From the NCBI GenBank assembly GCA_024643365.1, contig JAHENC010000002.1:186001-250000 (forward strand): a stretch of DNA of 64,000 nt, in the 5' to 3' direction. The notes under the pieces were generated by a model. It had not been told where the DNA came from. It saw nothing but the letters and a program-made list of their open reading frames with translations, and searched no databases. The translations under genes and the position numbers were made by a program. Position 1 is the stretch's first letter. Every line of letters starts with the position of its first letter. This DNA is from Crocinitomicaceae bacterium (GTDB lineage Bacteria > Bacteroidota > Bacteroidia > Flavobacteriales_D > Crocinitomicaceae). This document shows positions 40,287 to 40,785 of the stretch, in pieces.

Positions 40287-40644
40287 AATCCCGAAAGGAT
40301 TTTTGATCCTATCGAGACCGACGTGCAGTGGATGAAAGCTCTTCAAGTCTTCCGTGGGAAAACTTGAACTTTTTTCGTTCCCTTGCGCTTACGAAAACCT
40401 TGTGAGGATAATCCCGAAAGGATTTTTGATCCTATCAAGACCGACGTGCAGTGGATGAAAGCTCTTCAAGTCTTCCGTGGGAAAACTTGAACTTTTTTCG
40501 TTCCCTTGCGCTTACGAAAACCTTGTGAGGATAATCCCGAAAGGATTTTTGATCCTATCAAGACCGACGTGCAGTGGATGAAAGCTCTTCAAGTCTTCCG
40601 TGGGAAAACTTGAACTTTTTTCGTTCCCTTGCGCTTACGAAAAC
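40287..40644 (+). repeat. Three tandem copies of a 123-bp unit
   Basis: Copies at 40287-40409, 40410-40532 and 40533-40644 (the last lacks its final 11 bases). They differ at one visible base (ATCGAGACC in copy 1, ATCAAGACC in copies 2 and 3). Each unit starts with an imperfect foldback resembling the tRNA-Arg 3' end (ATCCCGAAAGGATT with ATCCTATCGAGAC) and carries a second hairpin (TTCAAG..TTCC GTG GGAA..CTTGAA) followed by CTTTTTTCGTT, which resembles the tRNA-Arg terminator in opposite orientation. No protein is apparent. Confidence 0.92.
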
Positions 40645-40660
40645 GAGGTTTTCGATGCGC
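40631..40660. repeat. Inverted junction between repeat copy 3 and the tRNA-Arg flank
   Basis: GCGCTTACGAAAAC-GAG-GTTTTCGATGCGC: near-perfect inverted repeat marking where the plus-oriented repeat meets the minus-oriented tRNA terminator flank. Confidence 0.8.
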
Positions 40661-40664
40661 TGGA

Positions 40665-40703
40665 AACGAAAAAAGCTCCTTCAACTGTCGTTGAAGGAGC
40701 TTT
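40665..40703 (-). terminator. tRNA-Arg terminator
   Basis: A 14-bp stem (40672-40685 with 40690-40703) with a 4-base loop, followed on the minus strand by a T-run at 40669-40674. Confidence 0.88.
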
Positions 40704-40711
40704 CATCAGAG

Positions 40712-40785
40712 TGATCCCGAAAGGATTCGAACCTTTGACCTTCGCCTTAGAAGGGCGTTGCTCTATCCAGCTGAGCTACGGGACC
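40712..40785 (-). tRNA. tRNA-Arg(TCT)
   Basis: 74 nt. Acceptor GGTCCCG pairs with CGGGATC, discriminator A. D-arm contains AGCTCAGCTGGATAGAGC, the anticodon loop is CTTCTAA (anticodon TCT), and the T-arm is AAAGGTTCGAATCCTTT. CCA is not encoded. Confidence 0.96.

Follow-up and report, generated by a model that had tools for sequence, protein, structure and literature searches.

What is the origin of the tandem array that lies beside a tRNA-Arg(TCT) gene in the window, the stretch of 64,000 nucleotides of Crocinitomicaceae DNA analysed here? A first-pass annotation had proposed that the end of the tRNA and its terminator were copied locally in inverse orientation and then amplified. We consider it probable, at roughly 0.6, that the array is instead the amplified right half of a palindromic insertion element of ~150 bp, one of a family found at tRNA and tmRNA 3' ends in Flavobacteriales.

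The array and the element beside tRNA-Arg

The array itself was confirmed by TRF, which reports three near-identical units at 40286-40644 (period 123, 2.9 copies, 99% matches). Copies 1 and 2 differ at a single base, as had been noticed, and copy 3 extends for 113 bp and then merges into the tRNA-Arg flank. Because the units are nearly identical, the copy number of three is uncertain if the assembly is a short-read one. The string ATCCCGAAAGGATT in the unit matches the tRNA-Arg 3' end exactly, also as described previously, and what had been called its decayed partner is an inverted copy of the tail. Aligned with the minus strand of the tRNA and its flank, the plus strand of the unit scored 40, far above 1000 shuffles (mean 16, maximum 27); with softer scoring the value was 31 and the shuffle maximum 20. 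The parts of the locus, in window coordinates, are the following.

40711..40785, minus strand: tRNA-Arg(TCT), host gene of the element, whose 3' tail AATCCTTTCGGGATCAC is the duplicated segment (ARAGORN, Rfam)
40564..40710, minus strand: complete element core nearest the tRNA, with L arm, central loop, R arm and CACTGCACGTCGG (covariance model R1)
40671..40704, minus strand: L arm, predicted intrinsic terminator serving tRNA-Arg (terminator scan: 15 pairs, then a T tract)
40631..40660, no strand: central inverted junction ACGAAAAC-GAG-GTTTTCGAT, apex of the long L-R palindrome (sequence, RNA fold)
40286..40644, minus strand: tandem array of 123-bp units, each an R half, an inverted tail and a direct tRNA-tail copy (TRF, repeat search)
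40564..40579, minus strand: R motif ATCCACTGCACGTCGG of the unit nearest the tRNA (motif search)
40441..40456, minus strand: R motif of the middle unit (motif search)
40318..40333, minus strand: R motif of the outermost unit (motif search)
40532..40547, minus strand: tRNA-tail copy AATCCTTTCGGGATTA (sequence, repeat search)
40409..40424, minus strand: tRNA-tail copy AATCCTTTCGGGATTA (sequence, repeat search)
40286..40301, minus strand: outermost tRNA-tail copy (sequence, repeat search)

Read in the sense of the tRNA (minus strand), the element starts from the tail AATCCTTTCGGGATCAC and continues with TCTGATGAAAGC and the terminator hairpin with its T run (arm L). The central inverted junction follows, then an A run, a hairpin and GAGCTTTCATC (arm R), and then CACTGCACGTC; the far end consists of an imperfect inverted tail (GGTCTTGATAGGAT), a short loop and the direct tail copy AATCCTTTCGGGATTA. 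The 123-bp unit corresponds to the right half of this element: it comprises half of the centre, then R with the linker, and finally both the inverted and the direct tail. In the array, three R arms accordingly go with a single L arm. The core at 40564..40710 scores 102.8 bits with R1 (positions 1-134), the window element being among the 25 training sequences of the model. The element has no ORF and no Rfam match, the promoter scan found no promoter near the array, and the long ORFs on its outer side are on the minus strand. Two other structured RNAs of the window, a SAM riboswitch (61475-61578) and an RNase P RNA (14145-14534), are both ordinary.

A family at tRNA and tmRNA 3' ends

The R motif ATCCACTGCACGTCG is absent from the tRNA-Arg flank, and it was found in many species downstream of tRNA-Lys, -Val, -Leu and tmRNA. 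Searching relatives for the unit, also at other tRNA genes, had been suggested with the first description of the array and proved informative: using the unit and the R motif, matches were obtained in about half of 86 congeneric genomes, indicating a patchy presence in the genus, while reversed-pattern controls of the R-motif search were nearly empty, with few matches. Among all loci fetched, 67 distinct R motifs have tRNA-Val, -Arg, -Lys, -Leu or tmRNA upstream of them in the same orientation. A further 13 are too close to a contig edge for a host gene to be called, and 21 have no visible tRNA; roughly half of the latter have a tRNA tail and are orphans or lie on broken contigs, and a similar share are chance-like. 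Where the element is single-copy, the distance from the RNA 3' end to the start of the R motif is almost always 111-132 nt.

The hosts of the family are tRNA-Arg (four isoacceptors), -Lys, -Val, -Leu and tmRNA, with the element downstream on the same strand, and the carriers are Crocinitomicaceae and other Flavobacteriales; most tRNAs of the window's genome are without an element. The order of parts is shared: the tRNA tail is followed by arm L with the terminator, the centre and the complementary arm R, whose end is CACTGCACGTC, and then come an inverted tail, an altered T-loop and a direct tail copy from the AATCC of the T-loop. A scan of a genome collection returned records nearly all of Flavobacteriales type, among them that of the isolate Taishania pollutisoli, which has a Lys element (L125); four matches (L113, L128, L135 and L138) are chance-like and lack a tRNA tail. 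Most of the genomes compared are metagenome assemblies. The covariance model R1, built from 25 elements, matched in 110 of 299 genomes of the order, where partial matches may be ordinary palindromic terminators. Of the 15 R1 loci inspected, most show the complete order of parts behind a tRNA or tmRNA, with families f3 and f7 represented among them, and three (L276, L287, L289) show no tRNA within the stretch examined. In further genera and families the matches are at tRNA-Arg, tRNA-Val and tmRNA. The R end had no match in the viral contigs searched, so that no phage carriage was seen, and no larger element using the same CACTGCACGTC end was present in viral contigs or among the genome-collection loci inspected. 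We found nothing on this element family in the open-access literature.

Proposed insertion within the T-loop and age of the element

Evidence for insertion comes from two tRNA-Arg loci. In genome G004 the terminator AACCTCACAGTAATGTGGGGTTTTTTT directly follows the tRNA, which represents an empty site, and in G023 the same terminator is found 166 bp further on, after the element and a perfect second 17-bp tail, with 149 bp between the two tails. This pair (L047/L049) is the only clean one, and the flank beyond the terminator aligns poorly; several other loci have an intact terminator right behind the outer tail. The element leaves the host tRNA intact, sits between its 3' end and the native terminator and brings a terminator of its own (arm L). 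In 57 of 57 elements the AATCC of the T-loop is the exact start of the direct tail homology, and not one base before it is shared, so the breakpoint is pinned to one spot of the loop.

The outer tail in G020 and G047 is an older tRNA-Arg allele, CCTGAGCGGATCAC, which is still the allele of the tRNA itself in G059 and G028. The insertion must therefore be old in G020 and G047, with a tail that was not homogenised, and the Arg element predates the species split.

Structure and covariation

The arms L and R match at 10.7 of 12 positions against 9.1 in shuffled pairings (0 of 5000 shuffles). For 19 elements RNAalifold predicts a cloverleaf-like structure in which, among other helices, the tRNA tail pairs with the inverted tail; 95% of cells are paired in the consensus fold and 12 pairs show double changes, a result reached by 0 of 500 shuffles, while slid controls collapse. 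Since the structure shuffles keep relatedness, these counts are to be taken as support and not as probabilities. Of the two strands, the one of tRNA sense folds better, and mismatches between L and R are GU rather than AC (58 vs 26; 16 elements vs 1; both directions). Arm L combines a GC stem, a U tract and an RNA-strand wobble bias, as an intrinsic terminator does. Judging from the sequences, the L/R covariation together with wobble favouring the tRNA-sense strand suggests that a folded single strand of that sense, RNA or ssDNA alike, seems to be under selection. A transcription-linked mutation bias is a possible confounder of the GU excess, to which the R hairpin answers in part, as on its own it has no strand bias (24 vs 27 GU pairs).

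No support was found for the earlier proposal that the units could act as serial terminators on the plus strand: the R hairpin is unbiased, the promoter scan was empty nearby and the outer ORFs are on the minus strand. A small RNA of the plus strand was rejected for its lack of a promoter match and of strand bias in R. A hammerhead ribozyme, considered for the CUGAUGA present in the Arg case, was also rejected: the base after CUGAU varies, and it covaries with arm R.

Tandem amplification

Arrays of the R half are present in the window (123 bp), G030 (128), G037 (102), L126 (117), L106 (117), L116 (100) and G091, and they arose independently in separate species. They lack matching L arms. Arrays of the full element exist as well (L137, 168; L034, 159; L104, 164; L123, 165). 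Units from different genomes are 75-94% alike, and those of the window's genome hardly differ, so that amplification or homogenisation is recent in each lineage, in keeping with what had been proposed for the window.

Possible mobilisers and rival explanations

Y1 transposases are missing from many carriers, the window's genome among them, and reverse transcriptase from 8 of 10 genomes checked; both were rejected as mobilisers, since most carriers checked lack them. Each of nine Lys-type carriers has only two GIY-YIG matches, and those listed are long proteins. No transposase, reverse transcriptase or resident GIY-YIG nuclease accounts for all carriers.

Our preferred reading would work as follows. 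A break or strand exchange in the T-loop would insert the element and duplicate the tail, possibly driven by a factor recognising the folded strand of tRNA sense. The element, once in place, would persist vertically, and in some lineages (window, G030, G037, UBA10426, G091) the R half and tail would be duplicated in tandem through slippage or recombination at the palindrome and the tails. Against insertion, beside the missing mobiliser and the single clean pair, long vertical persistence with kept pairing could equally mean a host function, and the reading offers no ready route by which one family would gain the matching tail of each new tRNA. One rival is a host-beneficial structured RNA, in which a read-through cloverleaf (P0 of tail and inverted tail, P1, L hairpin, a helix of T run and A run, R hairpin) would compete with the terminator or regulate tRNA/tmRNA 3' processing. 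Strong covariation, the GU excess on the tRNA-sense strand, the invariant linker CACUGCACGUC and vertical retention across species agree with it, but the element is missing from many congeners and from most tRNAs of the window's genome, and insertion accompanied by tail duplication, R-half arrays devoid of matching L arms and the lack of an Rfam match also count against such an RNA. We regard it as rather unlikely.

Homing by small GIY-YIG nucleases that cut tRNA genes at the T-loop, leaving the noncoding elements as non-autonomous by-products, is in our opinion unlikely. At least 14 of 34 small GIY-YIG loci are near tRNA or tmRNA genes, all but one downstream on the same strand and then followed by tail copies with palindrome-broken loops; at tRNA-Phe the GIY-YIG units also form tandem arrays, and the arrays L104 and L139 contain GIY-YIG remnants. 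In one locus (L171, G072:C4:127300-128800) a GIY-YIG ORF lies between the tmRNA 3' end and the immediately following R end CACTGCACGTTAG with the tmRNA tail. This single suggestive case is possibly a coding version of the element, but it may also be a nested insertion, most GIY-YIG elements lack the CACTGCACGTC end, and the Lys-type carriers are poor in such genes. Relics of tyrosine-integrase island attachment sites (attL/attR cores at tRNA 3' ends) are very unlikely. Integrase attB sites typically carry direct repeats of the tail, reaching from the T-loop to the end of the tRNA, and the hosts are classical target genes, yet the element is only ~150 bp long without an integrase, and conserved spacing and covarying arms are unexpected of decayed islands. 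As for the first proposal, in which the tRNA-Arg terminator was duplicated by a local foldback and then amplified, the inverted geometry held up in the similarity of unit and flank, but the local origin did not, because the same R end is common to elements at different tRNA genes and tmRNA; moreover the element is older than the array, as the fossil tail allele in G020 and G047 indicates, and we judge this explanation highly improbable.

Relation to known elements

The rtT RNA of E. coli affects the stringent response and has a claimed regulatory role. The rtT/RttR repeats of the tyrTV operon (NC_000913.3, Rfam family RtT) are 178-bp units, 3.1 copies, directly downstream of tRNA-Tyr. Like the elements described here, each unit ends in a 19-nt tRNA tail copy from AATCC, preceded by an altered T-loop (..GAGT-AATCC), and holds an inverted piece of the tRNA-Tyr tail (GGGGAAGGAT, L291) ~100 nt before the direct copy. 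The window array follows the same plan: its units stand in tandem behind a tRNA, and each closes with a copy of the tRNA tail. However, rtT has no covarying L/R palindrome with CACTGCACGTC, R1 finds nothing in E. coli, the window element lacks a sequence or structure match to the Rfam family, and rtT belongs to a different phylum, a tRNA-Tyr host and a unit annotated with an ncRNA and the tpr ORF. The elements are therefore of an rtT-like kind and not members of the rtT family. Through this likeness the unexplained rtT of E. coli is connected with an element family of a different phylum that is widespread and conserved in structure. Tentatively, there may be a mobile class whose members enter tRNA and tmRNA genes at the T-loop in the form of a folded tRNA-sense single strand and duplicate the tail; the rtT repeats may also have arisen from this class. 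Since the same junction occurs at different RNA genes, with empty and filled sites in relatives, origin and mobility are testable.

MITE-like elements (RUP, RPE, YAPL/RU-2; PMC2229807) are also 100-170 bp long, noncoding and patchy, with complementary arms. The L/R arms represent terminal inverted repeats and the 17-bp tail a target-site duplication, seen in the one empty/filled pair. The family differs in being confined to tRNA/tmRNA 3' ends, in duplicating 17 bp of the host tail and in that no parental transposase was found: the R end had no match in viral contigs, and among the inspected loci no larger coding element shares the ends, L171 being ambiguous. REP and CGTC-tagged palindromes (PMC3733652) are likewise palindromic, with CGTC near one end in most copies of the family; REPs, however, are 20-40 bp and dispersed at high copy (PMC3733652), whereas the family has few copies and does not keep the tag (CACGTA and CACGTTA variants). 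Membership in the REP/CGTC superfamily was rejected on the variable tag and the confined location. Free-standing GIY-YIG genes at tRNA 3' ends share the place, the broken-loop tail copy and the tandem arrays, but they encode a nuclease and have other ends.

Other elements at tRNA genes

Two GIY-YIG genes of ~90 aa (L184, G020:C13:112506-113259; L183, G000:C10:8083-8408) lie directly downstream of tRNA-Phe, with a T-arm copy interrupted by CCGCCGCGGCGG behind the gene and, in G020, tandem units of ~329 bp. At tRNA-Met (L219, G000:C22) there are truncated copies of a tRNA whose D-loop contains palindromes (CCGCCGCGGCGG, TGCCGATGTATCGGCA). Additional foldback elements of the window's genome, at tRNA-Lys (L215), tRNA-Arg(ACG) (L228) and tRNA-Ser(GGA) (L232), have R ends of other sequence (e.g. 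..GGGAATACGCGCNAGCGTAATCC), so that this genome has more than one class of tail element; a tandem foldback element with another R end is present in G074 (L051). At tRNA-Lys of G024 and G032 (L016, L087) a different palindrome, which contains GATCAC+AAGAAAAAGTC as a perfect inverted copy, precedes the CACTGCACGTC element. An insertion sequence with ends GGATCA..CCAAAA..GGGGA seems to interrupt the R hairpin in the Arg element at the end of L041 and in L013 (G028), and a similar sequence follows tRNA-Arg in L042. Finally, behind the terminators of tRNA-Val (L213) and tRNA-Asn (L217) of the window's genome there are ORFs with a MATLTLALDMRRAKKDG-like start that read like a tyrosine integrase, and the flank of L139 resembles the tRNA-Val one.
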